A DNA stretch of 64,000 nt from an uncultured Bacteroidales bacterium (GTDB lineage: Bacteria; Bacteroidota; Bacteroidia; Bacteroidales; Bacteroidaceae): NCBI GenBank assembly GCA_902786925.1, contig CADAEK010000001.1, forward strand, positions 1-64,000, written 5' to 3'. A program made the position numbers and the translations under genes. A model generated the notes under the pieces. That model was not told where the DNA came from and ran no database searches. It saw only the letters and a program-made list of their open reading frames with translations. Positions 3,475 to 30,559 of this stretch are shown here, in pieces. The number at the start of each line of letters is the position of its first letter. The first letter of the stretch is position 1.

Positions 3475-3547
3475 CGCGGGGTGGAGCAGTTGGTAGCTCG
3501 CCAGGCTCATAACCTGGAGGTCGCATGTTCGAGTCCTGCCCCCGCAA
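3475..3547 (+). tRNA. Initiator tRNA-Met (CAT)
   Basis: A 73-nt cloverleaf with anticodon CAT at 3508-3510. The acceptor stem CGCGGGG/CCCCGCA leaves the first pair as C1-A72, the mismatch diagnostic of initiator tRNA. The D-arm TGGAGCAG and the T-arm with GTTCGAGTC are standard. The anticodon stem is CCAGG/CCTGG, so one of the three usual consecutive G-C pairs is A-U. The 3' CCA is not encoded (discriminator A followed by CTA). Confidence 0.95.
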
Positions 3548-3693
3548 CTAAGAAGTTGACAGTTACTGTCAGAATCTGGAAATTGAGAACTGACAATTGA
3601 AAAGTAGGCTAACGTGATGTGAGCTGATAGGCACACAACCCGAATGGTAACTTTCAATTTTCAATTCTCAATTTTCAATTTTAAACCCATCGT
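3548..3693. repeat. Repeat-rich spacer between the two tRNAs
   Basis: The 146-nt spacer holds GTTGACAGTTACTGTC near the first tRNA and a CAATTTTCAATTCTCAATTTTC run before the second, the TTGACAA-type low-complexity repeat seen elsewhere in the window. No ORF or terminator is evident, consistent with co-transcription. Confidence 0.5.
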
Positions 3694-3777
3694 GCCGGAA
3701 TGGTGGAATGGTAGACACGAGGGACTTAAAATCCCTTGGGCATTGCGCCCGTGCGGGTTCGAGCCCCGCTTCCGGTA
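3694..3777 (+). tRNA. tRNA-Leu (TAA)
   Basis: An 84-nt class II tRNA with a long variable arm. The anticodon stem AGGGA/TCCCT encloses loop CTTAAAA with anticodon TAA (3727-3729). The acceptor GCCGGAA pairs with TTCCGGT, ending in a G-U pair. CCA is not encoded. Confidence 0.95.
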
Positions 3778-3783
3778 CTAAAA

Positions 3784-3819
3784 GCAGGCCTTGCGAATCG
3801 TATGATTTGCAAGGCCTGC
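3784..3819. terminator. Terminator hairpin after the tRNAs
   Basis: GCAGGCCTTGC (3784-3794) pairs with GCAAGGCCTGC (3809-3819), and the stem continues through AATC/GATT. CTTTT follows. It can also serve the converging symporter gene. Confidence 0.8.
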
Positions 3820-3902
3820 AATCTTTTACCTTATTCTCCCGTTATTCCTTTCTGGAACAGCCGTTTTTTCCACGGAGCGACTATTGGCTTACACCTACAA
3901 AC

Positions 3903-5156
3903 TTAGAACGCAAAGTCAGGATTCAAGTCCTCCTCGACATTTAGAGGCTGCACAGGACGGGCAGAGTCCTTCTCCACTATCGCGCACACACACGAGTCGC
4001 TCCACACATTCTCGGCAGTCTCCACCATATCTATAATCGTATATATAGGCAAAATGAAGCCCATGACACCAACTGGTGCCCCCACCCCTGCCATCAGCGA
4101 AAGAGTGAGAAAGAAGCATCCCATCGGCACACCAGCATTGCCAATGGCAGAAACCACCGCAATAAGCACCCACAGGAGCATGGAACTCCAGTCCAGCACC
4201 ATTCCTCCGTTCTGCATCACAAAGAGCGACGTGACAAGGATGAATGCCGCACAACCGTTCATGTTGATGGTGGTGCAGATGGGCAGCACGAAACGCGCCA
4301 CCTGAGGATGCGCCTTCAGCCGCGCTTCAGCCGACTGTATCGTCACAGGCAAGGTGGCTGCGCTGCTCTTTGTAAAGAGAGCCATAAGCACCGCTGGAGA
4401 CATGGCATTGAGCACCTTCCTGGGATTCAGTCCCCGCGCCAACAGGAACAGGGGCAGCACCACAAAGAACTGAATAAGGTTACCGCCCATGATGACAGCC
4501 ACGTACTTGCCCAGCGAGCCCACTGCCACGCCAGCCGACACCTCAGCCGAGAGCTGTGCCGCAAATGCCACAATGCCTAACGGCAACGTCCAAATGAGGG
4601 AACGGATAAGCGTGTAGAGCACCTCCTGTAGTCCATAAATGCCACGAATGAGCGTCTCCACATTCTCGTTCTTCTTGATGAATGCTAAAGCCAGTCCTAC
4701 AGATGCGCTGATGAGCAGAATGCTCAGCACACTACCCTTGGCAAAGGGTTCCACCACATTGTTGGGAATGACACTCAAGATGTGGTCATAATAAGTAAGC
4801 TTCTCCATATCCTGCAAAGGAAGAGCTTCAACCGAAGACAGTTGTATAGACCCAGCAGGCAGATTGCCTGGGGCAATTACGAGATAAAGCACCAATCCCA
4901 CCACAGCTGCCGCAAAGGTGGTAAGCAAGGTGTAAGTGAGCGTGTGCAGGAAAATGCGCCCCGTCTCTTTCTGTCCTCCTAAGGACGAGAGAGTGGTGAT
5001 GATGGCCAAAGCGATAGTGGGCACAGCCACAAATTGAAAGAGCCGCGTGTAAACTGTGGCAATAAATCCCAACAGAGCATTCAGCCATTCAATGCCAAGC
5101 CAACCAAGTACAGCACCCACAACGAGTGTACTTGTCCAGATGATAATATTCTTCAT
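3903..5156 (-). CDS. Dicarboxylate/amino acid:cation symporter (DAACS family)
   Basis: The 417-aa integral membrane protein resembles the GltP/SstT/DctA family, which imports glutamate, aspartate, serine or C4-dicarboxylates with Na+ or H+. Typical segments are LFQFVAVPTIALAIITTLSS in the N-terminal half, then ALFTKSSAATLPVTI (the serine-rich re-entrant hairpin) and INMNGCAAF (the TM7 NMDGT-like motif). FFLTLSLMAGVGAPVG forms the second hairpin. The substrate cannot be fixed from sequence. It starts 49 nt after the TonB receptor gene and may be read through from it. Confidence 0.88.
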   Translation of the reverse strand: MKNIIIWTSTLVVGAVLGWLGIEWLNALLGFIATVYTRLFQFVAVPTIALAIITTLSSLGGQKETGRIFLHTLTYTLLTTFAAAVVGLVLYLVIAPGNLPAGSIQLSSVEALPLQDMEKLTYYDHILSVIPNNVVEPFAKGSVLSILLISASVGLALAFIKKNENVETLIRGIYGLQEVLYTLIRSLIWTLPLGIVAFAAQLSAEVSAGVAVGSLGKYVAVIMGGNLIQFFVVLPLFLLARGLNPRKVLNAMSPAVLMALFTKSSAATLPVTIQSAEARLKAHPQVARFVLPICTTINMNGCAAFILVTSLFVMQNGGMVLDWSSMLLWVLIAVVSAIGNAGVPMGCFFLTLSLMAGVGAPVGVMGFILPIYTIIDMVETAENVWSDSCVCAIVEKDSARPVQPLNVEEDLNPDFAF

Positions 5157-5205
5157 TGTCTTATATTCCGTTTCAATCTTTTTCGTTCGTGAGTTGAGTC
5201 ATTCA

Positions 5206-7182
5206 TTATAATTGCACAGAGAGGTTTACATACACGTTCCTGCCCTTTTGAGGAATATCGCACCAATCGGCATAAGTTGTATAACGCTTGTCCGCTAAAT
5301 TCTCCACCCCAGCACGAAGGGTCAAATCGTGTCCCTGAACAGGCAGCGTATACTGCCCGCTGATCCCTACAACAGCCCATGCAGGAGAGACCGTCTCGCC
5401 ATACTTCTTCCCGTAGTTCACCTGTCGGCTGTTGCCACGCACCTCCACCTTGCCCTGAAAATGCTTGTAAGAGAAGGACAGGTGAGACGTGTAGGCAAAA
5501 GGTGAGATGAGTGGAAGCGGGTCTTCCTCGTCATCACGCCCGATGGCATAACTCAGGCGCGTGTTCCATGCCATCCACGTAAGCAGTTTCCATCCGGCAG
5601 AGAAAGACGTGTTGACGATGGTAGCATGACCAAGATTGCCATACACCTTCACGCCTTCCGCATCCACCGTCATAGCCGAGAGCCTATTCTCAAATTGCCC
5701 GATAATGTAGTTGGAGAAGAAGAAGGCATTGGCATCTAATCCAAAGGTCAGTCTCGAGTTGAGCACAGATAACTTGTAAGCTCCGTTCAACTCAATGGCA
5801 CTCTCATTCTTCAGCCGCGGATTGCCGATGTAGTCATACTGATCGAATGTGTTGTTCAGATAATATCCATACGCCTCCGTCACCGTAGGAGCACGGCTTC
5901 CCCACCCCGCTCCGAAATTCAGTTGAGAGTTGAGAATGGACAGCTGATAGTTCAGCGCCACACGTCCCGTCACTTGATGGTAACGCTGCTTCATGCCAGG
6001 GAAGAACACCCTCAAGGCGTGGTAACCCTCATCGTTGTTCAAGCGCTGCGTTTGCCATGCAAGCTTAGCCGACACCTTCAATGACTGCCTATCTGTAAGA
6101 GATACCACATCCGTAAGCGCCAAGCCCGTGTTCAGCGTGCCCACATCAGGCCATGTGACCATGTACATGGGCGCTGCACCTCCAGGGTACATCGTCATGT
6201 CTGCAAACAGGCGGTTGTAGTAAAGGTCGTAATTCACCTGCATGTCATGCCGTCCGTTCGAGGCAGAGAGGAGACTGTACAGCCCGCTCGTCCAACTCTT
6301 GCCCGGCATGTCCATGTGAATCTCCACGTCAGGACGCGTCGTGTCGTCCATGATGTGAGTGATATGGTTGTAATACGCCTTCGTCTCCCATGAGTTAAGG
6401 AACCCTTCCGGCCACAGATGCCGGTAGGAGAGCGACGTAATGAACGCTTCCGCCTTTGCCACATCCATGTTCAAGGCAGGATAGCCTACATCAGTAGCAC
6501 GGTCAAAGATGAATGTGCCCTCCACAATATCCATGTCGGCTAATTTCACGCCAGCATTGGCAAAAGCATTCACCTTCTGGAACTTCGAGAACTGCACCTC
6601 GCGGCCTCCACCCTCTTTATAGTTGTCGGCATGACGATAAAAGAAGCCTGCATTAGCATAGAAACGCGGTGTGGACACAGCCCCATCCGCACCATACACC
6701 TGCAGGTGTCCATTCGTCTCATAACCCGCATCCGCATTCAGATGGAACAGGTCTCCGTCGAAACCCACCCGACGCAGCTTCAGGTCAAGGCTGCCTCCGA
6801 TATTGCCCGTCGATTGCGGATTCCCGTTCAGTCCCGAATTCAGCAGGATGCTCTGCAAATTGCTGCTCTCCACATACGAAGTCACAGGATCCATCTTGTC
6901 GGTGCAGGCATAAAAGATTTTCATGCCGTCAATCGTAGTAGCCACACGCTCCGTTGCCATATTGTTCACCACTGGCTCCCATGCATACGAGCCACGTCTT
7001 ACCAGATTCACGTGCGAGAATTCCGACAGGTGCTCATCAATACTGGCCACCTGCCCCTTGAACGAGCGTGTCCGTCCTTGCCCTGCCACCGACACCACTA
7101 CCACCTCGTCAATTGCATGCGACGAAGTGGTGAAGGTATCGGGCAGGAGGAACAGAGATGAAATAAACAAAACTGATAACAT
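5206..7182 (-). CDS. TonB-dependent receptor, OprC/NosA copper-importer type
   Basis: This is a 658-aa outer-membrane barrel with an N-terminal plug. I chose the ATG at 7182 because it begins a clean signal peptide; an in-frame ATG at 7248 would precede it with a non-signal stretch and overlap the promoter. Cys93 and Met97 form YACTDKMDP, the CxxxM motif. His276 and Met278 form THIMDD, the HxM motif. Together these are the copper ligands described for Pseudomonas OprC, and GYPALNMD is also typical of that branch. A methionine-rich loop MTMYPGGAAPMYM lies mid-barrel. The C-terminus ends in an aromatic-rich strand. The metal assignment is inference from motifs; barrel and plug are clear. Confidence 0.88.
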   Translation of the reverse strand: MLSVLFISSLFLLPDTFTTSSHAIDEVVVVSVAGQGRTRSFKGQVASIDEHLSEFSHVNLVRRGSYAWEPVVNNMATERVATTIDGMKIFYACTDKMDPVTSYVESSNLQSILLNSGLNGNPQSTGNIGGSLDLKLRRVGFDGDLFHLNADAGYETNGHLQVYGADGAVSTPRFYANAGFFYRHADNYKEGGGREVQFSKFQKVNAFANAGVKLADMDIVEGTFIFDRATDVGYPALNMDVAKAEAFITSLSYRHLWPEGFLNSWETKAYYNHITHIMDDTTRPDVEIHMDMPGKSWTSGLYSLLSASNGRHDMQVNYDLYYNRLFADMTMYPGGAAPMYMVTWPDVGTLNTGLALTDVVSLTDRQSLKVSAKLAWQTQRLNNDEGYHALRVFFPGMKQRYHQVTGRVALNYQLSILNSQLNFGAGWGSRAPTVTEAYGYYLNNTFDQYDYIGNPRLKNESAIELNGAYKLSVLNSRLTFGLDANAFFFSNYIIGQFENRLSAMTVDAEGVKVYGNLGHATIVNTSFSAGWKLLTWMAWNTRLSYAIGRDDEEDPLPLISPFAYTSHLSFSYKHFQGKVEVRGNSRQVNYGKKYGETVSPAWAVVGISGQYTLPVQGHDLTLRAGVENLADKRYTTYADWCDIPQKGRNVYVNLSVQL

Positions 7183-7246
7183 ATATTCGTTGATGAAGTT
7201 TTTTGAAGCAAATAAAAACCAAATTGTTTCGGGAGTTAAAGAAAGC

Positions 7247-7272
7247 ATAACTTCGCAAACAAAGGAAGTTAT
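7247..7272. promoter_or_regulatory. Inverted repeat overlapping the receptor promoter
   Basis: ATAACTTC (7247-7254) and GAAGTTAT (7265-7272) form a perfect 8-bp inverted repeat with a 10-nt spacer. The minus-strand -7-like box TTCCTTTG (7267-7260) lies inside it, so a bound regulator would block the copper-receptor promoter. This is a candidate metal-responsive operator. Confidence 0.45.
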
Positions 7273-7277
7273 TTTGA

Positions 7278-7319
7278 AAGCCCCCTCATTTCCACGAAGC
7301 AGAGGAACCGAGGGGGCTT
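7278..7319 (-). terminator. Terminator after the YtkA-like lipoprotein gene
   Basis: AAGCCCCCTC (7278-7287) pairs with GAGGGGGCTT (7310-7319). On the minus strand it is followed by TTCAAAAT. It separates the lipoprotein gene from the receptor gene. Confidence 0.65.
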
Positions 7320-7323
7320 AGTC

Positions 7324-8268
7324 TTATAGTGTCACATCCCAATAGAGAGAGCTGAATCCATCCTTCTGGCTATCTCCTCCAGCCACGACATTCCCCTGTG
7401 CATCTTTCACAGTCAGGTGAATGCGCCACAAGCCCGTCATCGTCAGATTGATACTGCCCTGATAACTGCCGTTGGGCTGCTTAGCAAGCGCCACGTTGCC
7501 AGGCGAGGTATGATTGCCCATGTCTGGCATACGGGGGTCAATCTCTACCGTGAATGTCTCAGCAGCCACAGCGTATGGCGTGGTAGCAGGGCTACTCTTT
7601 TTTGAGATGTAAGCCTGGATAGCGTTCGTGCCTGTCTTCCAGTCATTGGGGTTCACCAGCGAGAGGTAGTAGGTATCGTTGCCCACCTTGAATGACTTCA
7701 GCCAATCCTGACCCTCAAGCAAGGCTTCCACATTGACCACTTGGTCCTCCACACGTCCTTTACTGCCCAACACCTCAATGTCATAAGAGAACTGCCAATA
7801 GCCTGCTTCGCTCGTGTTCATCAGCAGCGACACCCATCCGTGCTTCACGGCAGGACGCTTCGTGTCGAGCACCTCCAGCGCGCCACCCACAGGAGTGCTG
7901 TGCCACATGTTCATTTTCACCATGTTCATCAGCGGGGTGACATTCTTGATATCAAAGAACTTCACATAGTTGCCCGTCTTCTTCTTGGTCACCACGAAGT
8001 ACAAATCGTTGTAACCTCTGTGCAGTGTACCAGTCTTTGAAAAGGCCTTCACGTCATACAGTCCATCCACAGAAGTGGAGAGTTCAGGAATGTAGTGAAC
8101 TGTCTGCAGGAACTTATACACCTGCAGTGCCTCTTCGGCCGAGCAGCAATCCACATCCTTCGAGAGGTCAATACCGTCAATTACAATACCATTCTCATCA
8201 TCGTTGCTGTTGCACGATGTGAATCCCAGCGTCACCGCTGCCAAAAACAACATTAATACCTTTTTCAT
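7324..8268 (-). CDS. YtkA/FixH-like methionine-rich lipoprotein next to the copper receptor
   Basis: The 314-aa lipoprotein has signal MKKVLMLFLAAVTLGFTSC. Its C-terminal 100 residues carry RMPDMGNHTSPGN and GSINLTMTGLWRIHLTV, the pattern of the YtkA-like/FixH-like beta-sandwich often found near copper proteins. A second metal-suited patch is PLMNMVKMNMWHSTPVGG, and a CC pair sits at about residue 41. Position beside an OprC-like receptor suggests a surface or periplasmic copper-binding partner (inference). It has its own promoter, and a hairpin follows it. Confidence 0.7.
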   Translation of the reverse strand: MKKVLMLFLAAVTLGFTSCNSNDDENGIVIDGIDLSKDVDCCSAEEALQVYKFLQTVHYIPELSTSVDGLYDVKAFSKTGTLHRGYNDLYFVVTKKKTGNYVKFFDIKNVTPLMNMVKMNMWHSTPVGGALEVLDTKRPAVKHGWVSLLMNTSEAGYWQFSYDIEVLGSKGRVEDQVVNVEALLEGQDWLKSFKVGNDTYYLSLVNPNDWKTGTNAIQAYISKKSSPATTPYAVAAETFTVEIDPRMPDMGNHTSPGNVALAKQPNGSYQGSINLTMTGLWRIHLTVKDAQGNVVAGGDSQKDGFSSLYWDVTL

Positions 8269-8316
8269 GTCTCTTCAGTTTTTTGTCGTTAATAGATTTG
8301 TTTTTGAAATCTGGTG

Positions 8317-8347
8317 CAAAGGTACAGACATTGCACAGAGCCCACAA
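8317..8347 (-). promoter_or_regulatory. Promoter of the YtkA-like lipoprotein gene
   Basis: Minus strand: TTG (8347-8345), 20 nt, TACCTTTG (8324-8317). This is a near-perfect Bacteroidetes promoter. Confidence 0.75.
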
Positions 8348-8373
8348 TACCGCTCATACGCTATTGGCATACC
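8347..8373. promoter_or_regulatory. Two ATACC half-sites upstream of the lipoprotein promoter
   Basis: ATACC occurs at 8347-8351 and 8369-8373, a 22-nt period, abutting the -33 element. The half-site is the same as in the ATACC-N8-GGTAT repeats at 16996 and 29521. Confidence 0.35.
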
Positions 8374-8396
8374 ATAAATAGAGTAGAAAAAGCCCA

Positions 8397-9674
8397 CTAC
8401 TTATCCCTCATAATGTCCACAATCACCTTCTCTGTTCCCACCATGCCGGGCGATGCAATCAGCCCCATGTGGTACATCGTGTCTTCAGGTGTCTTACCAT
8501 TAATACCGTGTTCCTTCTCTATGGCAATGCCTGCTAAAGCCAGTTCCACAGAGCGATAGGCTGCATCCACAGCCACGATGCCCTTCATCGTGCAGCCATG
8601 ATTGCCCCCATCGCAAATCATGCCCGTGATGCTTGATGCCATATTCTGAATCGTCAGCGTGAGTGTTTTGAGACTACCCCCTTTCTGGTAGGCAAGTCCA
8701 CATGCCATACCCGTACCAGCGGCAATGGCACAACCACAAAATGCAGAAAGCTTGCCCGAATGTTCCTTGATATACATACACACCAGATAACTGAGGGCAG
8801 TGGCTCGCAGCAACTGCTCATGCGTCCACCCATTCACTTTCGAGGCAGCATAAAGAGGCAGCGTGGCAATGATGCCATGCGCCCCACTTCCTGTAATGCT
8901 CATGGCTGGCAGGGGAAGTCCTAACACGCGCGCCTCAATAGCAGCATTGCAGAGCAGGGATGCAGACTTTTGTTCGTCTGTCGAGATGATTTGCTTCCCA
9001 TTCTGCTGGTAAAGGAAGTGAGCAAAGGTGGTTTTCCTGTTCCGGATGGCCTCCTCAAAAAGCGCCAAGTTCATCTCGTATGCCGCACCAATGAAACTGA
9101 TTTCTTCCAACGGGACCGTCTTCACATAGTGCAGAATCTGGCGCAACGAGTACCGGTGAATGAGAGGAACATCCTCACTCGAAGAAGTGTCCCATTCCTT
9201 CGCCACTCTACGTGAAAACACTACACGTTCGTTCTCTCTTATTTCTGTGATGTTTGTGTGCGCATCATCAATCGTGAGAGAAGCCGTTCCCTCATCGGTA
9301 GTAATCACCACATGGATGTGTATCCTGCTGCTGACCTCCCCCATCTCCACTTTCACCCAACCTGCCTCCACAAGGCGTTTCGCCTCACGGTTATGGGCAG
9401 CCGTAACCCCATCCAGGCATTCCAGCCCTTTAGCCGCATCCGCTGCCACATATCCCAATGCGGCAGCATGTGCATTGCCCACCTCATTGCTGTTGGGAAT
9501 GCCACAAGTGAATGCATTCTTATACATGCCACTATTCAGCACAATGCGCACTTCCTGCAGAGCACCAGTCACGTGCTCTTTTGCCGTCGCCACCGCAAAA
9601 GCAATAGCGCCAGGTTCCGTTACACCCAACGCAGGACGCATATCATCATGAATCAGTTGAGTGAGTCTTTTCAT
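8397..9674 (-). CDS. L-cysteine desulfidase family protein (UPF0597, CyuA/CdsB-like)
   Basis: The 425-aa protein matches the UPF0597/serine-dehydratase-alpha-like family. Members such as E. coli CyuA (YhaM) break L-cysteine into pyruvate, ammonia and sulfide with an Fe-S cluster. Family hallmarks are LGVTEPGAIAFAVA at the start, CGIPNSNEVGNAHAAALG, ITGSGAHGI, and conserved cysteines in FCGCAIAAGTGMACG and MICDGGNHGCTMKG. Its ATG overlaps the stop of the NhaC-type carrier (ATGA), so the two are translationally coupled. An anaerobic cysteine-degrading, sulfide-producing role is likely. Confidence 0.85.
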   Translation of the reverse strand: MKRLTQLIHDDMRPALGVTEPGAIAFAVATAKEHVTGALQEVRIVLNSGMYKNAFTCGIPNSNEVGNAHAAALGYVAADAAKGLECLDGVTAAHNREAKRLVEAGWVKVEMGEVSSRIHIHVVITTDEGTASLTIDDAHTNITEIRENERVVFSRRVAKEWDTSSSEDVPLIHRYSLRQILHYVKTVPLEEISFIGAAYEMNLALFEEAIRNRKTTFAHFLYQQNGKQIISTDEQKSASLLCNAAIEARVLGLPLPAMSITGSGAHGIIATLPLYAASKVNGWTHEQLLRATALSYLVCMYIKEHSGKLSAFCGCAIAAGTGMACGLAYQKGGSLKTLTLTIQNMASSITGMICDGGNHGCTMKGIVAVDAAYRSVELALAGIAIEKEHGINGKTPEDTMYHMGLIASPGMVGTEKVIVDIMRDK

Positions 9675-11017
9675 TTCTTTCTACGTTTGATAAAACAAGT
9701 AGTTAGGCTACATATTAATAATACCCATGGATAAAAAGCCGTGAAGAACATATCAGTAGCCTGTATCGCTACGTTTGCGCCCGAGGACTCAACGCCTTTC
9801 TGTAACAGCAACAGACATCCTCCATAAGGCAAAACAAAAGGGAACGTACAGATGACTGTGGCAAGGAGGGTGGCTCGGCGATAAGGATGAATCCCTTGCT
9901 CCTTACCCAGCGTGTTGACAAAAGGTGCAACACAGATATTAGCGATGGTGTTCACCGCTGCGATGAGAATACCCGCAAGAGACACCATTGTGAAAATGGT
10001 CAGTTCAGTCTTGCGTTGAGATTGCCCTACTCCATCATTCAGTTTCGCCATCATCCATTCCATACATCCGCTACGTAGAATCAAGCCCGTAAGCGACACT
10101 ACCACCATCAGCAACAAGCAAATGCTTGTCATGTCTGCAATGCCCTCCACTATAGCGCCACCCACTTTTGAGTTCTCCACACTAACAAGAGTGCTGAAAC
10201 CGAACAGATGCAATCCTAAACCAACGACAATGGCTGTCACGATGCCTACGAAGAGAGACACGAAAATGTTGACTTTTCCTAGTGCTAAAGCCATCACTAT
10301 AAAGGTAGGCAGCAACAATGCCAATCCCTTGCAATCACCCTCTGCTGACAATCCGCAATTTATCACAGATTCAGACAGAAGCACACTCGCCACACCATAT
10401 ACAACCACCGCAATGCCTACGCTCACCAGCACTATCGGAAGTCTGTCTCGTATAGTGCCTCCTACATCCGCCACGCGCTTGTCCTCTCGAAATTCTTGCG
10501 TAGATGCAGCGATAATTGCGGTGTCAGACACAGGAGCAATGCTGTCGCCCAAAGCAGCACCAGAGAGGATTGCACCTCCAAGCAAGGCCGGATGTGCCCC
10601 TATTGCAATGCCAGCAGGGAAAAGCGTGAGACTCATAGCACTAATCGTACCAAAACCAGAGCCCGTTGAGATGGCAAACAAGCCAGAGAAGAGGAAAGTG
10701 ACAAGCGTGAAACTTGCACCACCCATATTCATGCTGTGAGCCATCCACACCAATCCTTCCACCATGTGCCCTTCCTTCAAGATGTTCCCATACACTCCCA
10801 CCATCAGCCAGAGCAAGGTAGCAGTCATGGCCGTTTTGCTACCCATAAAAGTAAATATGGTGGTCCAATAGGCATCACCTTCCTTTGTCAACAAGGCACC
10901 AAGAATTATGGCAACGAGTCCTATCCCTGTCAACAAATCAATATTGACAGTACCGCAAAACGGCAGCCCAATGGCTGCCGCAACAAAAACACTAAAAGGA
11001 ATGAGGTTCTTTGTCAT
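9671..11017 (-). CDS. NhaC-family Na+/H+ antiporter-like carrier, possibly for cysteine
   Basis: This 448-aa membrane protein of the NhaC/ion-transporter superfamily has about 11-12 TM segments. GSGFGTISAMSLTLFPAG, LGDSIAPVSDTAIIAAS and ATVICTFPFVLPYGG are typical. Proteins annotated NhaC include real Na+/H+ antiporters and amino-acid or carboxylate carriers. The 4-nt overlap with the cysteine desulfidase gene favours a transporter feeding that enzyme (inference). Only 9 nt separate it from the upstream lipoprotein gene, so it probably belongs to the SusD transcript. Confidence 0.82.
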   Translation of the reverse strand: MTKNLIPFSVFVAAAIGLPFCGTVNIDLLTGIGLVAIILGALLTKEGDAYWTTIFTFMGSKTAMTATLLWLMVGVYGNILKEGHMVEGLVWMAHSMNMGGASFTLVTFLFSGLFAISTGSGFGTISAMSLTLFPAGIAIGAHPALLGGAILSGAALGDSIAPVSDTAIIAASTQEFREDKRVADVGGTIRDRLPIVLVSVGIAVVVYGVASVLLSESVINCGLSAEGDCKGLALLLPTFIVMALALGKVNIFVSLFVGIVTAIVVGLGLHLFGFSTLVSVENSKVGGAIVEGIADMTSICLLLMVVVSLTGLILRSGCMEWMMAKLNDGVGQSQRKTELTIFTMVSLAGILIAAVNTIANICVAPFVNTLGKEQGIHPYRRATLLATVICTFPFVLPYGGCLLLLQKGVESSGANVAIQATDMFFTAFYPWVLLICSLTTCFIKRRKK

Positions 11018-11026
11018 AAGAAAGGA

Positions 11027-11743
11027 TTATTTCCAAACAGGACGTATAGTGCGACCCCATTGCCTGTCATTCAAACTCCACTGTGGAGCGAAACCACTTC
11101 CGATGGATACATACTCGATATCATCGTAGGTAGTCCATCCATAAAGAGTTGAAGACAAGAGAATGATTTTTGTACCGACACTAAAAGTTTCTGTACCGTT
11201 TTGATAACCTGCGGCAGGAATGAAGATACTGTTTCCATTTGGTCCAACTACTTCATGTCCATTCACACCATTCACTTTCTTCCATGTCCAAGTGGCTTTC
11301 TCAATCAGTTCTACAATCTCCTTTTGTGTAGGAGTACGCCACTTCCCCCCCCAATTGACACGAGCTGCATCGTCAGAGAGTTCGAGCGTACGAAGTCCTC
11401 CACTGACTGAAGCATCTAATGAAGACAGTTGATATTTGGTCAAAGCATCTGGCTGGCCCCATTTATAATTATCCCACGTATAGTCCGCCTTTGGTTCAGT
11501 TTCGCCAAACACAAAGTATTCACCAAAGTCTTCAGGAGAAGCAGCTCCCAAATTGTGAGTGGCCCATTTTACAGATAATCCTAGGTCAACGAAATCACCT
11601 ACTGTGCCGCCTATAGAAACTTCCTTACCGGCATTTGTATTAACGTCTTCAGGCTTGGATTCGTCATCATCTTTGTCACAAGAAACAGATGCCACACTGA
11701 GAATAGCAGCTGCAGCGAGCATAAAGAATTTGTTCTGTATCAT
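11027..11743 (-). CDS. Lipoprotein with Fibrobacter-paralogous (TIGR02145-like) domain
   Basis: Start chosen at 11743 because it gives the lipoprotein signal MIQNKFFMLAAAAILSVASVSC. After an acidic linker the mature part reads VDLGLSVKWATHNLGA, GEYFVFGETEPK, WRTPTQKEIVEL and FIPAAGYQNG, the pattern of the Fibrobacter major-paralogous domain that is common in Bacteroidetes surface lipoproteins. Its biochemical function is unknown. It lies 92 nt after the SusD gene and 9 nt before the carrier gene, so it is probably an accessory surface protein of the same uptake system. Confidence 0.75.
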   Translation of the reverse strand: MIQNKFFMLAAAAILSVASVSCDKDDDESKPEDVNTNAGKEVSIGGTVGDFVDLGLSVKWATHNLGAASPEDFGEYFVFGETEPKADYTWDNYKWGQPDALTKYQLSSLDASVSGGLRTLELSDDAARVNWGGKWRTPTQKEIVELIEKATWTWKKVNGVNGHEVVGPNGNSIFIPAAGYQNGTETFSVGTKIILLSSTLYGWTTYDDIEYVSIGSGFAPQWSLNDRQWGRTIRPVWK

Positions 11744-11835
11744 ATTATCTTTTTGTTTTATATAAGGGCTGGAATACATTGCTGTATGCCAGCCCTTCAT
11801 CAATGACAACTCTTTAGAAATACTTAGATTCAAAC

Positions 11836-13479
11836 TTAATAACCTGGATTCTGGCTGATACCAAGGTTCTCACCCTGCAATCCTGTTGGGATAGGTTGGC
11901 GGTAGTGCTTGCCGCGCACATTGTTGTATTTTGCCACAAGGTGGTTGTGAATCTTCGTAAAGTAAGCTTCTTGGGTCTTAGTATAAGTGTGACCTGTGCT
12001 TGTCTTCCAATCATCGGGGAAGTGTTTGAAGTTGGCAACTTCCTTCACTGATGAGATAAGGTCTTTCCAACGGTAGCTATTCAGCAGAGAGAATTGTTCG
12101 TAGGTGAACTCGTAGTCCCATTCACGCTTGATTTGCTCGAAAGTTGGTGCGCTAACTGTTGCAAGACCGGCACGTGTACGGAGCTGGTTGAATGGTTCAG
12201 CAGCCTCGCTGTTTCTACCCAGCTGCACGAGAGCTTCGGCCTTGATGAGAAGTACTTCTGCATAACGAATCTCGATACGGTCAACTGAGTTCTGAATGAT
12301 TTCGAGATTTTCTGCATTCTCATAACTTTGATCCACGCCTTTACCGTTGATAGGAGTGTAGATAGGTGAGAGATAGTGGTGGATTTTACCAGTCTCAGGG
12401 TTCTTAATCTGCACGAAATAAGTCTCTGCAAGACGTTTGTCATTAGGCTGCTCTGATTTCCAGTCCTCGTAGAGGTCATCGTCTGCTACTTCAGTATGGT
12501 TCTGGCTATAGCCCTCACCGTTCTCACCATTTTGGAATGGGAAAGTCCAAGAGCAGTGGGTTTGGTGGTTACCCTGCGCATCCTTAGCGTCACCGTCATG
12601 GGCAATTGTAAAGAGGTGCTCATTAGTCTTGCGCTTATTGCTCTCATACTCACGACCAAACAGTTTCTTATAATCTGGGTCAAGGGCGAGTTTATGACTA
12701 TTGATGACCTTGTCGGCATACTGCACAGCTTTCTCCAGTTTAGCGTTGTCCTTGCTGAAAGCAGGGTCTGTCTGTGAATTAGCAATGTCTGCTACCTCTG
12801 CCTGAGAGAGTGGCTTGTCACCCCACACGAGGTAGGCTCTTGCCAACAGTGCTTGAGCAGCCTGCTTTGATGGTACACGTGGGTCGCCATCGTAGTCTTT
12901 CAAGAGCGATTCTGCAGCAGTCAAGTCAGCGACAATCTGATTGAATACATTGTCAATACTCTGACGTTCAGTGGTGCTACCACCTTCCTCCGTATAAACA
13001 GGAATTTCTCCCCAAAGCTGGACAAGCTTCAAGTATGCCAAGGCACGAAGGAACTTAGCACGACCTACAGCAGCGTCATAGCCAGCTGGAGTCACCTTGC
13101 CTTCCTCGAAAGCTGTCTTGATCTTCGCAATGGCTTCATTTGCCTGTGTGATACCCAGGAACAGGTGGTTAAAAATCTTCACTTGATACCAAGTGCCGGG
13201 TTCCTGCTCAAAGCGGCTGTTCACAGGACCAGGTTCATCCTCTTCACCTTCGAAAGAGATGAGTTTGTTACTGTTCAACTCGATGATGAATGAGAATGAT
13301 GAGCTGAGTGGCTGCCAGTGGCTGTACACACCGTTTACCAGAGAGATGGCACTAGCATCATCTTTTACCACATTCTTGTCTGTCACCTGATTCGTGTCGT
13401 CATCATCCGAAGAGCATGATGAAAAGCCTGCTAAAAGGCTTGTTGCTGCAATGGCAGCGAGGAAAAGATTCTTTTTCAT
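11836..13479 (-). CDS. SusD/RagB-family nutrient-binding lipoprotein
   Basis: The start at 13479 gives signal MKKNLFLAAIAATSLLAG and a lipid cysteine at residue 22, preceded by an AGGAGA ribosome-binding site. The TPR-like region includes AKFLRALAYLKLVQLWGEIPV, and the C-terminus has EVLLIKAEALVQLG and LRTRAGL, all family hallmarks. SusD proteins form the lid over a SusC transporter. Unusually, it is separated from its SusC gene by 357 nt with a terminator hairpin and a new promoter. It heads a unit with a carrier and cysteine desulfidase, so the ligand may be a peptide or thiol compound and not a glycan (inference). Confidence 0.92.
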   Translation of the reverse strand: MKKNLFLAAIAATSLLAGFSSCSSDDDDTNQVTDKNVVKDDASAISLVNGVYSHWQPLSSSFSFIIELNSNKLISFEGEEDEPGPVNSRFEQEPGTWYQVKIFNHLFLGITQANEAIAKIKTAFEEGKVTPAGYDAAVGRAKFLRALAYLKLVQLWGEIPVYTEEGGSTTERQSIDNVFNQIVADLTAAESLLKDYDGDPRVPSKQAAQALLARAYLVWGDKPLSQAEVADIANSQTDPAFSKDNAKLEKAVQYADKVINSHKLALDPDYKKLFGREYESNKRKTNEHLFTIAHDGDAKDAQGNHQTHCSWTFPFQNGENGEGYSQNHTEVADDDLYEDWKSEQPNDKRLAETYFVQIKNPETGKIHHYLSPIYTPINGKGVDQSYENAENLEIIQNSVDRIEIRYAEVLLIKAEALVQLGRNSEAAEPFNQLRTRAGLATVSAPTFEQIKREWDYEFTYEQFSLLNSYRWKDLISSVKEVANFKHFPDDWKTSTGHTYTKTQEAYFTKIHNHLVAKYNNVRGKHYRQPIPTGLQGENLGISQNPGY

Positions 13480-13628
13480 GTTTTTAGTCTCCTTTCTTTT
13501 CACCTTAATAGTTAAATTGATAATGTAAATAGTATATAATATAGTTCTATCTCTTTCGAAGAAGAAGGGTTGATATATTGCCTTTATACTTTTGGAGGCC
13601 TTCTATCGCATCTTTTCTAAATCTGGTG

Positions 13629-13636
13629 CAAAGTTA
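13629..13636 (-). promoter_or_regulatory. Promoter -7 box upstream of the SusD gene
   Basis: TAACTTTG on the minus strand, about 150 nt before the SusD ATG and downstream of the SusC terminator. It implies independent transcription of SusD. Confidence 0.6.
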
Positions 13637-13662
13637 CGGACATTCTACCATGCTCGAAATCC

Positions 13663-13709
13663 CGATGGTGTGGTATTCGTGTACCTCGATAGCGTGGTAT
13701 TCATGTACC
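13663..13709. promoter_or_regulatory. Two 23-nt direct repeats upstream of the SusD promoter
   Basis: Units at 13663-13685 and 13687-13709 (24-nt period) agree at 20 of 23 positions and share the core GTGGTATTC and TGTACC. They lie 27 nt upstream of the -7 box, as expected for a dimeric activator binding in tandem. Confidence 0.6.
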
Positions 13710-13742
13710 ACAAAAAAGGTAGATGACGGAGAGAGGATAACA

Positions 13743-13813
13743 AAAAAGGGGCATTTGCCACCCCATTTCTACCTGCAGTTGTTGTGCAAGTATGGTAGCA
13801 AATGCCCCTTTTT
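13743..13813. terminator. Bidirectional terminator after the SusC gene
   Basis: AAAAAGGGGCATTTGC (13743-13758) pairs with GCAAATGCCCCTTTTT (13798-13813), a 16-bp perfect stem with A/T tracts on both sides. It ends SusC transcription 23 nt past its stop. Confidence 0.8.
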
Positions 13814-13835
13814 CATTTTTTCTTTTACATTCTCA

Positions 13836-16800
13836 TCATAACGTGATGTTCACGCCAAATGTAAAGGTTCTTGCTGATGGGTAGGCGCCACTGTCTGTGC
13901 CACTGCTCACCTCTGGGTCATAACCCTTGTATGGTGTGATGGTGAACAAGTTGGTGGCTGTGGCATATACGCGCAGAGAGAGAGGGAACGACTTAGGCAA
14001 TCGAGGACGGAATCCTATGGTGAGATTGCGCAACTTCAAATAGCTGGCATTCTGCACGTAGCGGCTGTCGATGTAGGAGAAAGGACGTGAGGTAGAGGCG
14101 AGAGGCAAGGTATTGCCACCATTCTCCGCTGTCCACGAATTCTTCACCGTAGAGAGCACGTTGTAGGAGTCGCCCGTCTGCTCCAGTCTTCTTCCTAAGG
14201 CGTTGTAGAGTCTGGCGCCATAACTGCCTGCCAAAGTAACAGAGAAGTCCCACTCTCGCACCTGCAGTTGAGAAGAGAATCCAAAAGTGAAGTCAGGCTG
14301 CACAGAACCGAGTATCACACGGTCGTTGCCGTCTATCTTATGGTCATTGTTAGCATCCACAAACTTGGCATCTCCTGCCTTAGGAGTAAGTCCGTTGATG
14401 GTAGGCAGCTTGCTGACATCTTCCCCTTGCAGCACAATGCCATCGAACCGCAAGCCATAGAACGAGCCAAGCGCCTCTCCCTTACGGAGTATCTGCTGAT
14501 TGTCTGCTCCCTGAATGACATTGTTGGTCTTGCCCATGCTGGAAATCTCATTATGGTTATGGGCGATATTGGCAGATGCCGTCCACTGCAAGTGGCGACG
14601 TTTGAGCAAGGTGCCGTTCAAAGCCAGCTCGATACCCTTGTTCTCCACATTGCCCACATTCTGCAGTTGGGTGGTCACACCCGAAGAGAAGCCCATAGGC
14701 ACAACAAGCAAGAGGTCGGAAGTCTTTTTGTAGTAGAGGTCAAGCACCGCGTTGAAACGTCCACCCCAGAGTCCGAGGTCAGCACCGATGTTGTAACTGG
14801 CCGTCGTTTCCCACTTCAGGTTGTCATTAGCGCTATTGGCCTTGGCATAAGAAGACGAACCGCCATAAGAGCCTGTGCTGTAAGAGGTATTGAAGGCATA
14901 GTCAGAAATCTCCTGATTGCCCACCAATCCACCAGTCAGGCGCAACTTCAGATAGTCCAGATGACGGGCATTGGCCAGAAACTTCTCCTTATCCACATTC
15001 CATGACAGACCGAGCGATGGGAAGTAGCCCCAGCGATGGTCTTTTGCGAATCGGCTGGAACGGTCAGCGCGGAAGGTTGCAGTCGCGTTATAGCGGTCAA
15101 GCAGAGTGTAGTTCACACGTGCGATAAGGCTGTTCAAGTCGCTTTCGCTGATGCCCGTCTGCGGCGTGTAGATATTAGCGCCATCGCCCAGGTTGTACTG
15201 CTTCAGTGTCTCGTTGGTGAAGTGGTTGGTACGGATGCTGCTGAAGGTAGATTCGCTGGTCTGCTTCGTATAGCCTGCCAATGCGTCAAACTGATGGATG
15301 CCGAGTTCCTTGTTATAAGACAAGGTGTATTCCTGCTGCCACACATCGGTCTGCCGGTTGCCCGTACCTCCAATACCCTGAGTAGCCAAGCCCAAGGAAG
15401 TGTTGGCCCCAGAGAAATAGTTCTGTGTCAGTTTCTCGCTGCTCAATCCCACCGTTGCCTTCAACGTGAAGTCACCCAACTTATAACTTGCCCACACATT
15501 GTTGAGCAGGTAGTTGTTGACATTCTCAGCCACACTCTCCTTGACGTCATAGACAGGGTTGGAAGCATGGTCACCGATGGCGAAGTAGGCATATTCATAA
15601 GGGTTGGTGAAGTTGTATGAGCCGTCAGCGTTATACACAGGAACCACTGGAGGCATCAGCAAGGCATACACGAAACTGTTGGTGATGCCAGCCGAGAAGG
15701 GCGATGAATTGAACACCTTCTCCTCGGTGGTGGTCAGTCCCTTCTGCTTACTGCGGCCATAGGTGGCGTTGATGCCAAACTTCAGATTCTTCTGCAGTTC
15801 CCACTCCACATTGGTGTGGAAGTTATAGCGCTGGAAACCGGAATTGAGCACAATGCCGTCTTGGTCGGTATAGTTGACAGAGAAGGCATAGCGGCTCTTT
15901 TCCGTGCTACCATTGATGGAGAGTTCGTGTCCCTGCTGCACGGCTGTACGGAGCAAGGCATCCTGCCAGTCGGTACCCTTGCCAAGTGCCTTAATCTGCT
16001 CGTCGGTGTAGCCGCCCTTATTGTTGAAATAAGTCTTTTGGAACTGTGCCCATTCAGAGGCATTCATCAGGTCAAGATGCTTGCTCACGGTGCTCAATCC
16101 GATACTGTATCCATAGGAGATATGCGCCTTCTTGTCACCCAGTTTTCCTTTCTTGGTAGTGATGAGAATCACGCCGTTGGCGCCTCGTGAACCGTAGATA
16201 GCCGTGGCACTCACGTCCTTCAGCACCTCGATGCTCTCAATGTCGTTGGGATTGATGGTGGCCAACGGATTGAGGTTGCTCTCGATGGCTCCCAAGCCTG
16301 TCCCACTGGCTGCCGCATCTTTGTAATAGATGAATCCATCAACCACATACAGAGGCTCGTTGCTCGCGTTGACAGAATTTCCGCCACGAATGCGGATGCT
16401 GCTGTCTGCACCAGGCTGTCCACTGGCTGCCGTCACGTTGAGACCTGCTACCTGGCCACTCAAAGCTCCATCGAGCGTTGAAGCGGTGCTGTTCTCAAAC
16501 ACATCGGCCTTGACAGTCACCACCGACCCCGTCAGCTGCGTGCGGCTCTGTGTGCCATAGCCCACAACCACCACATTATTGAGGTAGCTGCGCTTCTCGG
16601 AGAGTTTCACATCAATATCCTCCTCATCGTCATACACGGTAATGGTTTGCGGACGGTAGCCGGTGTAGCTGATGCTGAGCTTGACCGGCAGCGACTTCAC
16701 GTCAATAGCAAAATGCCCGTCATAGTCGGTCAACACTCCTTTGCCCTCACCGTACCGGATTGTGGCACCTACGATACTTTCTCCTGTGATAGCATCCACG

Positions 16801-16886
16801 ATGGTTCCCCGAACATTTTGTGCCGATGCTGCAATTATGGGAGCAACAGCCAGAACCCCAGCTAATAAGAATTGTTTCTGTTTCAT
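13836..16886 (-). CDS. SusC/RagA-family TonB-linked outer-membrane transporter
   Basis: The start at 16886 gives signal MKQKQFLLAGVLAVAPIIAA, leaving 1016 aa. Domains in order are a carboxypeptidase-regulatory-like repeat (GTIVDAITGESIVGATI), the RagA box before the plug (NNVVVVGYGTQSRTQLTGSV), a plug with IRGGNSVNASNEPLYVVDG and IEVLKDVSATAIYGSRGANG, and a 22-strand barrel. Such transporters import oligosaccharides or peptides with a SusD lid. It has its own promoter and an ATACC-N8-GGTAT operator candidate upstream. Confidence 0.95.
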   Translation of the reverse strand: MKQKQFLLAGVLAVAPIIAASAQNVRGTIVDAITGESIVGATIRYGEGKGVLTDYDGHFAIDVKSLPVKLSISYTGYRPQTITVYDDEEDIDVKLSEKRSYLNNVVVVGYGTQSRTQLTGSVVTVKADVFENSTASTLDGALSGQVAGLNVTAASGQPGADSSIRIRGGNSVNASNEPLYVVDGFIYYKDAAASGTGLGAIESNLNPLATINPNDIESIEVLKDVSATAIYGSRGANGVILITTKKGKLGDKKAHISYGYSIGLSTVSKHLDLMNASEWAQFQKTYFNNKGGYTDEQIKALGKGTDWQDALLRTAVQQGHELSINGSTEKSRYAFSVNYTDQDGIVLNSGFQRYNFHTNVEWELQKNLKFGINATYGRSKQKGLTTTEEKVFNSSPFSAGITNSFVYALLMPPVVPVYNADGSYNFTNPYEYAYFAIGDHASNPVYDVKESVAENVNNYLLNNVWASYKLGDFTLKATVGLSSEKLTQNYFSGANTSLGLATQGIGGTGNRQTDVWQQEYTLSYNKELGIHQFDALAGYTKQTSESTFSSIRTNHFTNETLKQYNLGDGANIYTPQTGISESDLNSLIARVNYTLLDRYNATATFRADRSSRFAKDHRWGYFPSLGLSWNVDKEKFLANARHLDYLKLRLTGGLVGNQEISDYAFNTSYSTGSYGGSSSYAKANSANDNLKWETTASYNIGADLGLWGGRFNAVLDLYYKKTSDLLLVVPMGFSSGVTTQLQNVGNVENKGIELALNGTLLKRRHLQWTASANIAHNHNEISSMGKTNNVIQGADNQQILRKGEALGSFYGLRFDGIVLQGEDVSKLPTINGLTPKAGDAKFVDANNDHKIDGNDRVILGSVQPDFTFGFSSQLQVREWDFSVTLAGSYGARLYNALGRRLEQTGDSYNVLSTVKNSWTAENGGNTLPLASTSRPFSYIDSRYVQNASYLKLRNLTIGFRPRLPKSFPLSLRVYATATNLFTITPYKGYDPEVSSGTDSGAYPSARTFTFGVNITL

Positions 16887-16943
16887 CTTGTCTAAGTTTT
16901 TTGTCGTTCCGAGAGAGTCTTCCTCTATTCTCAATTTCGGGTG

Positions 16944-16951
16944 CAAAGGTA
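16944..16951 (-). promoter_or_regulatory. Promoter -7 box of the SusC gene
   Basis: TACCTTTG on the minus strand, 57 nt upstream of the ATG. No TTG is seen at -33, which suits an activator-dependent promoter. Confidence 0.7.
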
Positions 16952-16995
16952 CGGGCTTTCCTTTTGACACGAAATCCCTTGCATGGGGGAGGCAG

Positions 16996-17013
16996 ATACC
17001 ATAGATGCGGTAT
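16996..17013. promoter_or_regulatory. ATACC-N8-GGTAT inverted repeat upstream of SusC
   Basis: ATACC (16996-17000) and GGTAT (17009-17013) with 8 nt between, 44 nt upstream of the -7 box. The same repeat at the same distance occurs before the PstS-like gene (29521-29538). TACC-type half-sites resemble those used by NarL-family regulators. Confidence 0.55.
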
Positions 17014-17844
17014 GTGACAACAGCGATTGACATGATGATTGGAACTAAAAAAAGGTTTCAGGCCCCTTCTTTTTGTACAAACTTTCAAAGAACAACTTTC
17101 CATCGACCTATACCACCAAGACTTTTCATATTGAACTTTTGACCTCTTCCCTCACCTGTTGCAAAGTTCGCTAGAAAAACAGCGTTTTCCATGAAATTGT
17201 ACACTTTTCTTAAAGTCCCCCTCAGTCCCCCTGTTTAGGGGGAAGAAGGGAGGAGAGAAGGGGTGTTGGGCCAAAGGGGCTCTTGAGGCTTGCCCTTCCC
17301 TTCACTTATACCTTTCCTACCAACAAATGTGAGCGTAGCAAACAGATCATTTTGAGTTGTGCTGAATCGCAGGTCGAAGTGCAAACACTACAAACGTGCA
17401 AACATGCAAACAAACTCTCCGCACGCACACACGAATAAATATATCACTAGTGATAATATATAATAAGAATAATATATTATTACTTTCCAAACACCCCCTA
17501 ATAAACAATCCCCCAACCACCTGACACAGAAAAAAAATGCACGTTTGCGCGTTTGCACGTTTACACTATTCGTATCACAATGATTTTCTATCGTATAATA
17601 ATGTGTACACTTTCCAAAAAAACTCCAATTTGTACAAAAATCCACCTGTTCCCTTCCCTATTTCATACTTTGTTTTTCCACACAAAAATCAGTTTAAGAC
17701 ACATAGATACCGTGGAGTACACGAGGGGGATTGCGAGCAGAATGCTTTAACATCACAAAATGTGTTCTTAAAGAAGAACGGCCGAGAACAACATCCTCAA
17801 AAAAAGGGGCATCGGAGCCCATATTCTACACTCAGACAACACAA
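17014..17844. other. Gene-poor intergenic region with an inverted GTGCAAA repeat system
   Basis: No credible ORF lies in these 830 nt. It holds a CCCCCT-rich hairpin (about 17216-17241), GTGCAAAC-type repeats (17379-17412), the palindrome TATCACTAGTGATA in A/T-rich DNA, and the complementary array GCACGTTTGCGCGTTTGCAC (from 17539). The layout parallels 34-267. Confidence 0.55.
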
Positions 17845-17874
17845 AGTGCCCCGCCAGCGAACTGGCAGGGCACT
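17845..17874. terminator. Terminator hairpin after the nucleotidyltransferase gene
   Basis: AGTGCCCcGCCAG pairs with CTGGCaGGGCACT around a CGAA loop, 35 nt past the stop. The U-tract is weak. Confidence 0.6.
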
Positions 17875-17909
17875 CCTGTATGTAGAGTATTATACTCTTC
17901 TGAAAAAAA

Positions 17910-18830
17910 TTAGAACAGCTTGTTAGGATATACTCCGTCGGCAACGAGCTTGGCAATGCGCTCTACGGTGGCCTCACGGTCAGCGGCGTATGTCACGCCG
18001 AACCATACAGAGGTGGTGTCGAGCACTTCCACGGTAGCGGTGCCTTCCTTGATGAGCTTGTTCACCATGAGCGGGATGAAGAACTCAGCCTTGAGGTTCT
18101 CCATGTTCTTTGGGTCAGAGAGGAACTCCTTGAAGTACTCCTCGCTGTACTCGAAGTAGTCGGGAGTGAAGCCCCACATGTTCATGCTGACAGGCACGTT
18201 CTCCTCGAGTGGAGTCCATACACCCTGCTCGTCCTTGTAGCAGATGGCGTTGCCCTTGTCGGCCTGACGCATAATCTCTGTGCGCTCTACTACATCCACG
18301 AGGTGACGGTTGTCGTCATACATGCACACGCCACGAGCCACAGAACCGTTCTCTGAGAGTGTGTTGCAGCAGCGGAAGCCCACCATTGCGTACTTATTCT
18401 TAGAGCCTTCTGGGAGGTTGCTGAGATACTTGCCGATAGACATGAAGGCATCGCGGCCATAGAAGTCGTCGCAGTTGATGACAGCGAAAGGCTCCTTGAT
18501 GACATCCTTGCCCATGAGCACAGCGTGGTTAGTACCCCAAGGCTTCACACGGCCTTCTGGGCACTTGAAGCCTTCTGGAAGGCTGTCGATGCTCTGGAAG
18601 CAGAGTTCGCATGGCACCACACCCTCATACTTAGAGAGAATCTGTGTACGGAACTGCTCTTCGAAATCCTTGCGAATCACCCACACAATCTTGCCGAAGC
18701 CTGCCTTCACAGCGTCGTAGATAGAATAATCCATGATGGTTTCACCGTTAGGGCCCAGACCATCAAGCTGCTTCAAGCCACCATAGCGGCTTCCCATTCC
18801 TGCAGCAAGGAGGAATAAAGTTGGTTTCAT
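17910..18830 (-). CDS. Sugar-nucleotide nucleotidyltransferase family protein
   Basis: The 306-aa protein has the Rossmann-like fold of NTP-transferases. It begins with MKPTLFLLAAGMGSRYGGLKQ, which contains the GxGxR signature for nucleotide binding, then PLDGLGP-like and FAVINCDDFYG (the metal-binding Asp pair). Such enzymes transfer NMP to a sugar phosphate; the sugar here is unknown. It lies 64 nt after the branched-chain aminotransferase gene with no clear own promoter, so the two may be co-transcribed. Confidence 0.8.
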   Translation of the reverse strand: MKPTLFLLAAGMGSRYGGLKQLDGLGPNGETIMDYSIYDAVKAGFGKIVWVIRKDFEEQFRTQILSKYEGVVPCELCFQSIDSLPEGFKCPEGRVKPWGTNHAVLMGKDVIKEPFAVINCDDFYGRDAFMSIGKYLSNLPEGSKNKYAMVGFRCCNTLSENGSVARGVCMYDDNRHLVDVVERTEIMRQADKGNAICYKDEQGVWTPLEENVPVSMNMWGFTPDYFEYSEEYFKEFLSDPKNMENLKAEFFIPLMVNKLIKEGTATVEVLDTTSVWFGVTYAADREATVERIAKLVADGVYPNKLF

Positions 18831-29641: not shown

Positions 29642-30559
29642 ATGAAGGTAAGAACATTATTTACAGTAATAGCAACAGCCGTAGCTCTTACGGCAAGTGC
29701 AGCAACGGCGCAGAATGATGGTGTTATCACAATCAAAGTAAACAAGGCAAGCAAGGCTTTGGTAGAGCAATGGATTAAGGGGTTCAAAGCAGTGAAGCCT
29801 AACGTGGAAATAGCGCTTGTGAGCGGAAAGAGCGCTGATGCCGACCTCACCCTGGTGAACGCGCCTCAGGAGGGCGCACAAATCACTTATGTGGGACGTT
29901 ATGCCCTGCTGCCCGTTACATCTACGGAGAATCCTCTGCTCCGCGACATCCAGAAGAAGGACTGGAAGAGCAAGGACATCAAGCACCTCTTCTTCAACGC
30001 CGAGGAAGAGTTTGACGAGGAGTTTGACGACTACGAAGAGGAAACTGAAGGAAAGAAGAACAAGCTGGAGGACAAGCTGACGGTGTACTCAGGCAGCAGC
30101 AAGGCATCGCTGACCAGCACCTTCGCAGCACACTTCGGACGCAGCACAGAAGACTTGCGCGGCAATCGCATCGCAGGCGACGACTACTATCTGCTATCTG
30201 CTCTTTCCGAGGATAAGGCTGCTGTGACTTTCAATGCACTGAACAACCTCTACGACCTTTCTTCACGCACTCTCCGCAGCGACCTCGCTCTGCTGCCTCT
30301 GAGCGTCAAGACATCACAGCGTGAGGTGCTCCGCTCTGGCAATCTCGACGAGACAATCGAACTCATTGAGAAGGAGAACATCGACCTGATTCCTGTGGCT
30401 GACATCGGTTTCACTTACGGAACATTCGACAGCGACATCGACGCATTCCTGCAGTGGGTCATTCAGGACGGACAGCAGTACAACCACCAGCAGGGCTTCC
30501 TCAAACTGAGTTCCAAGGAAGTGGAAAGCCAACTGAGAGTATTAGCACTTAACCAATAG
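29642..30559 (+). CDS. PstS-like periplasmic substrate-binding protein
   Basis: A 305-aa secreted protein; the start at 29642 gives signal MKVRTLFTVIATAVALTASA. VITIKVNKASKALVEQWIKGF and SGKSADADLTLVN resemble the opening of PstS-like (type 2) binding proteins. AITY-like VGRYALLPVTSTENP and SGSSKASLTSTFAAHFG continue that pattern. An acidic insert of about 20 residues (EEEFDEEFDDYEEE) is unusual. No ABC transporter or phosphate genes are nearby, so it may act as a solute sensor or be secreted for another purpose. The ligand is unknown. Confidence 0.6.
   Translation: MKVRTLFTVIATAVALTASAATAQNDGVITIKVNKASKALVEQWIKGFKAVKPNVEIALVSGKSADADLTLVNAPQEGAQITYVGRYALLPVTSTENPLLRDIQKKDWKSKDIKHLFFNAEEEFDEEFDDYEEETEGKKNKLEDKLTVYSGSSKASLTSTFAAHFGRSTEDLRGNRIAGDDYYLLSALSEDKAAVTFNALNNLYDLSSRTLRSDLALLPLSVKTSQREVLRSGNLDETIELIEKENIDLIPVADIGFTYGTFDSDIDAFLQWVIQDGQQYNHQQGFLKLSSKEVESQLRVLALNQ

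Follow-up and report, generated by a model that had tools for sequence, protein, structure and literature searches.

A putative copper-uptake unit of an OprC-like TonB-dependent receptor and a CrdA-like lipoprotein in Bacteroidota

Entry of copper through the Gram-negative outer membrane is understood for very few receptors (PMC8610252, PMC12914433). The window analysed here, a stretch of 64,000 nucleotides of contig CADAEK010000001.1 from an uncultured Bacteroidales bacterium, a rumen-type anaerobic relative of Prevotella, encodes a TonB-dependent receptor next to a methionine-rich lipoprotein, and an initial annotation took the two for a copper-acquisition pair. The locus raises the question of whether such a pair imports copper and, if it does, a second question that can be put to the test: why strong selection would maintain a copper importer in a lineage that lacks the copper enzymes searched for. 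A search of the open-licence literature found nothing on point for copper receptors of Bacteroidota, YtkA proteins with TonB receptors, TonB receptors in nos clusters or copper in the rumen.

Organisation of the locus

The unit is read on the minus strand from 8268 to 3903, in the order lipoprotein, receptor and SDF symporter.

7324-8268, minus strand: lipoprotein of 314 aa, first gene in reading order
5206..7182 (ORF opens at 7248), minus strand: OprC-like TonB-dependent receptor of 658 aa, second gene
3903-5156, minus strand: SDF-family (sodium:dicarboxylate type) symporter, Pfam SDF 6e-88, third gene
8317..8324, minus strand: TACCTTTG, candidate -7 promoter element of Bacteroidota type, about 50 nt upstream of the lipoprotein start
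7278..7319, minus strand: stable hairpin between the lipoprotein and receptor genes, -26.9 kcal/mol, z -4.2 (window)

Both genes of the pair lie where they had been annotated, the receptor within the minus-strand ORF 5206-7248. The native start of the receptor is most likely 7182, the 23rd codon of this ORF, where its homologues start, and with this start the annotated residue numbers C93, M97, H276 and M278 are correct. The element TACCTTTG is kept upstream of the lipoprotein in 9/10 same-genus loci, consistent with the lipoprotein having its own promoter. The hairpin is possibly a partial terminator. An Rfam scan of 3500-18000 gave one tRNA only, and a metal riboswitch was not found there.

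Neighbouring genes were identified by Pfam or NCBIfam where scanned and the rest by eye. The genes directly upstream of the unit (8397-11017) encode a serine-dehydratase-alpha family protein and an NhaC-type antiporter, which accompany the unit in 15/80 loci. Further upstream is a SusC/SusD pair (11836-17033), and such a pair precedes the lipoprotein on the same strand in 51-56/80 loci. A PBP-like protein of 305 aa without a Pfam match (29642-30559 in the window) adjoins a SusC gene in 21 loci.

Relation of the receptor and the lipoprotein to OprC and CrdA

The receptor carries the following motifs.

6892..6906, minus strand: C93-T-D-K-M97, predicted plug-domain copper ligands, aligned to OprC C143 and M147, invariant
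6349..6357, minus strand: H276-I-M278, predicted barrel copper ligands, aligned to OprC H323 and M325, invariant
6307..6315, minus strand: M290-D-M292, aligned to Met339 and Met341 of the OprC methionine track, kept in 39-40/40
6160..6198, minus strand: M329-T-M331...M339-Y-M341, conserved Met-rich loop
Receptor residues 25-30: DEVVVV, Ton-box-like stretch

C143, M147, H323 and M325 are the four copper ligands of Pseudomonas aeruginosa OprC (PMC8610252). When the PDB was searched with phmmer, OprC was the sole receptor matched (E 6e-9), and both motifs were in register, with YACTDKM on C143-M147 and HIM on H323-M325. The four ligands show no variation across 20 family, 40 phylum-wide and four proteobacterial OprC-type homologues and also in 80 named Bacteroidales loci; these sets overlap, some genomes being in two of them. 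CxxxM was found in 0 of 8 other TonB receptors checked in the window's own genome. The match to OprC in register, the invariance and the lack of CxxxM in these eight receptors argue that the motifs are not due to chance, and the CxxxM-HxM signature reported initially is borne out.

The GYPALNMD and Met-rich stretches noted at the same time are also genuine, their methionines being conserved in the family and phylum homologues. Seven methionines (M239, M290, M292, M329, M331, M339 and M341) do not vary among the 20 family homologues, and the first six of these recur in 38-40 of the 40 phylum-wide ones. M290 and M292 align with the silver-binding residues Met339 and Met341 of the OprC methionine track, and M239, M290 and M331 are common to all four OprC-type rows, the track residues being shared in part. 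The aligner can favour the pairing of methionines, and the claim for a methionine track is therefore weaker than that for the ligands.

The HMM comparison with NosA/OprC suggested with the initial annotation gave a divided result. The best NCBIfam model was the TonB-dependent copper receptor TIGR01778 (9e-26), but the score of 90.7 bits lies below the curated cut-off of 472.45; a Burkholderia OprC-type control reached 847 bits. In the tree, the receptor family formed a clade apart from OprC with support of 100/99, although long branches urge caution. Judged by these sequence comparisons, the receptor is a member of a sister clade of OprC/NosA, and because it fails the equivalog cut-off it is OprC-like and not OprC proper. 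The description as OprC/NosA-like agrees with the ligands, the best model and the top Foldseek match, but does not extend to a place within the OprC clade. A heme or siderophore receptor was set aside, as those NCBIfam models score below the copper model.

In the structural comparison by Foldseek, ranks 1-21 were all OprC chains, at approximately 17% identity over the fold alignment. VIA-align gave a tie between the zinc receptor ZnuD and OprC (Z 26.8 vs 26.5). The barrel was well modelled by AlphaFold2, and plug residues 57-119 had pLDDT <50. Convergence of the four predicted ligands would follow from homology to OprC, not from the model of the window protein. In one genome of the phylum (L201:8263-10533), the receptor groups with the proteobacterial OprC-type rows and not with the window's clade, and a lipoprotein partner of it was not found by HMM.

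The lipoprotein consists of two tandem CrdA/YtkA-like domains, at residues ~58-180 and 184-314. Each half matches the Helicobacter pylori copper protein CrdA at Z 10.4 in the fold comparison, with the next row at 7.4, and CrdA was matched by sequence search too. The YtkA-like character proposed earlier is confirmed by Pfam YtkA at 27.1 bits, above the gathering score of 25.9, in the second domain only. This domain contains the predicted copper site.

7510..7530, minus strand: M247-P-D-M250-G-N-H253, predicted copper-site loop of the second domain, with M277 at 7438-7440

A Met cluster in H. pylori CrdA has been proposed as a Cu(I) site (PMC9182242). M247, M250, H253 and M277 are invariant in 36/36 distant homologues and, as read from the alignment, appear to correspond to this cluster. 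M114, M116, M119, H123 and M150 of the first domain are kept in the family and only partly outside it. The lipid-bearing Cys19 is followed by NSNDD, which is nearly invariant in 60 homologues. The Bacteroidetes surface-export signal (LES) is described as a polar residue followed by acidic residues (PMC5080379). NSNDD fits this description, and the lipoprotein is therefore likely to be exposed on the cell surface.

Conservation and genomic context of the pair

The lipoprotein and receptor genes are neighbours in 80/80 named loci (two with an insert of ~3 kb), in 20/20 family loci (two with one extra gene between) and in 36/40 phylum loci. The partnership proposed initially is supported by this phylum-wide adjacency, but the proposal left out the SDF symporter at 3903-5156, which also belongs to the unit in the window's lineage.

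Outside the window's family, NosZ or MbnP is present in 44/47 carriers of the pair. NosZ lies <=15 kb from the pair in 12 of the 27 distant carriers having it, and MbnP <=6 kb away in 17 of 28. This proximity is far above random placement, and it comes from related genomes that are hence not independent. NosZ is also commoner in carriers (27/48) than in those sampled genomes of the phylum that do not carry the pair (101/347; Fisher p 4e-4). At locus L193, NosZ is followed by a small unassigned protein, NosL, the pair (lipoprotein, then receptor), NosD, an ABC ATPase that is NosF by position, and a NosY-like permease. In several other genomes, genes for MbnP and an MbnH-like di-haem enzyme come after the receptor gene. 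The copper substrate suggested at the outset gains from these nos and MbnP/MbnH surroundings, together with the top match to OprC, the conserved ligands and the CrdA-like domains.

Outside the window's family, the pair often has as its neighbour a small protein of ~110-135 aa whose N-terminus is hydrophobic and which contains a cysteine motif of CxGxC type (L164:12075-12416, L175:11048-11416, L178:11868-12272, L180:7263-7625 and L200:6972-7346); one representative had no Pfam match.

The new point concerns the window's own family. NosZ, MbnP and Cu-oxidase_3 (multicopper oxidase) are absent from all 22 family carriers (0 of 22), the absence of NosZ being scored alongside known positives as controls, and the SDF symporter gene follows the receptor on the same strand in 72/80 loci. 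COX1 was not found in the own genome, which has one Cu-oxidase_4 (YfiH-like) protein. Its only HMA domain is CopZ-like and forms the C-terminal part of an SO_0444-type Cu/Zn efflux protein (L211:3905-5269; 372 bits vs cut-off 300). This genome is a 92% complete draft, so its absences alone are soft and the 22-genome result is firmer. In most relatives outside the family, no symporter was observed next to the pair. The symporter may be a carrier of a copper ligand or a passenger.

The pair is patchy in the family sample (22/201 genomes). Judged by record title or species name, at least 56 of the 80 named carriers are of ruminant origin, a habitat in which copper is bound by sulfide and thiomolybdate. 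Cultured carriers include Xylanibacter brevis ATCC 19188 and Prevotella communis. Some carriers have a sulfur cluster after the copper locus, with genes for cysteine synthase, DsrE, a family 2B encapsulin shell protein and the cysteine desulfurase belonging to it, and a Cys/Met PLP enzyme (L082:13896-15335, L087:14432-16006, L042:1460-7445); storage of copper and of sulfur may be linked there. Near the unit, some same-genus loci have a small HMA-domain protein beside a second, unrelated TonB receptor (L051:14296-16621, L064:2457-4430, L069:643-978), which is possibly another metal receptor.

Mechanism, alternatives and known systems

From the observed homology, ligand conservation, pair conservation and genomic context we infer copper as the substrate, the import direction, the hand-off, the surface location and a role of the symporter. 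We consider it likely that the pair is an outer-membrane copper-uptake unit of Bacteroidota. The lipidated, probably surface-exposed lipoprotein would capture copper with its two CrdA-like Met/His domains and hand it to the OprC-like receptor. Conserved methionines would relay the ion to the CxxxM-HxM site, predicted to lie between plug and barrel, and copper would be freed on the periplasmic side when TonB moves the plug. NosZ or the MbnP/MbnH system would be the recipients of the copper in other members of the phylum. These consumers are absent from the window's lineage, where the unit is coupled to the SDF symporter. This reading is weakened by the ~17% identity to OprC, the tie with ZnuD, the low model confidence of the plug and a family without the copper enzymes searched for.

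Several other functions have to be weighed. The receptor could import copper not as free ions but in complex with a small ligand (a thiol, an amino acid or a dicarboxylate), with the SDF symporter moving the ligand or the copper complex across the inner membrane; the benefit to the lineage may then be partly sulfur or amino-acid salvage. The place of the symporter after the receptor agrees with this, as do the serine-dehydratase-alpha type enzyme upstream in the window and the reported import of chelated copper by Bordetella CrtA (PMC12914433). Genes for CysK, the Cys/Met PLP enzyme, DsrE, the family 2B encapsulin and the cysteine desulfurase also recur nearby, but in a minority of loci (6-14/80, raw counts). 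The ligand set, however, is that of OprC, which is reported to bind ionic copper (PMC8610252), and relatives outside the family mostly have the pair without an adjacent symporter. We hold import of chelated copper to be rather unlikely.

A role in copper defence or sensing, with the lipoprotein sequestering the metal, is very improbable: TonB-dependent receptors are importers by established mechanism, the locus contains no efflux gene, and relatives have the pair among NosZ assembly genes. Such a role would nevertheless suit CrdA, a known resistance determinant (PMC9182242), as well as the SO_0444-type efflux protein with its CopZ-like domain and an own genome that has no copper enzyme among the families searched, save the YfiH-like protein. 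Transport of a different metal such as zinc or silver on the same scaffold is suggested by the ZnuD tie in VIA-align. Against it, the receptor has the C/M/H/M ligands of OprC, a set of soft-metal type, the surroundings are nos and MbnP genes, the lipoprotein is of CrdA type, and the NCBIfam ZnuD model gave no score for the window receptor at E up to 1; we give this reading hardly any credence.

If the pair takes up copper as a nutrient, anaerobic rumen Prevotella relatives without NosZ, MbnP and multicopper oxidases might keep the fully conserved importer for an unrecognised copper-dependent enzyme or process, or for copper-thiol salvage. We offer this tentatively, as a conceivable rather than an expected explanation. 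If true, it would represent a copper economy in anaerobes that is so far undescribed. With this locus, the range of the CxxxM-HxM type widens to span Bacteroidota, in the form of a receptor and lipoprotein unit that the present curated model does not name.

The closest known system is OprC of P. aeruginosa and NosA of P. stutzeri (TIGR01778). The window receptor shares with it the CxxxM-HxM ligands in register, several track methionines and the best sequence and Foldseek match. It differs in its low identity over the fold, its score below the cut-off, its separate, supported clade and its obligate lipoprotein partner. It also has several extra conserved methionines, M339 being absent from OprC-type rows. 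Both lipoprotein halves resemble H. pylori CrdA and YtkA-like proteins (PF13115) in fold and in the Met-rich copper loop. Unlike CrdA, the window lipoprotein has two tandem domains on a lipid anchor and His replacing one Met, and it is encoded with a TonB receptor, whereas CrdA sits in a resistance locus. BtuB-BtuG of Bacteroides thetaiotaomicron likewise combines a TonB receptor with a surface lipoprotein, and BtuB1G1 occurs in the structure match lists, but its lipoprotein has another fold and its substrate is vitamin B12. CrtA/BfrG is similar in that TonB-dependent copper import is tied to copper enzymes; by description, it differs in forming a cluster distinct from OprC, in occurring mostly in beta- and gamma-proteobacteria and in importing chelated copper (PMC12914433).
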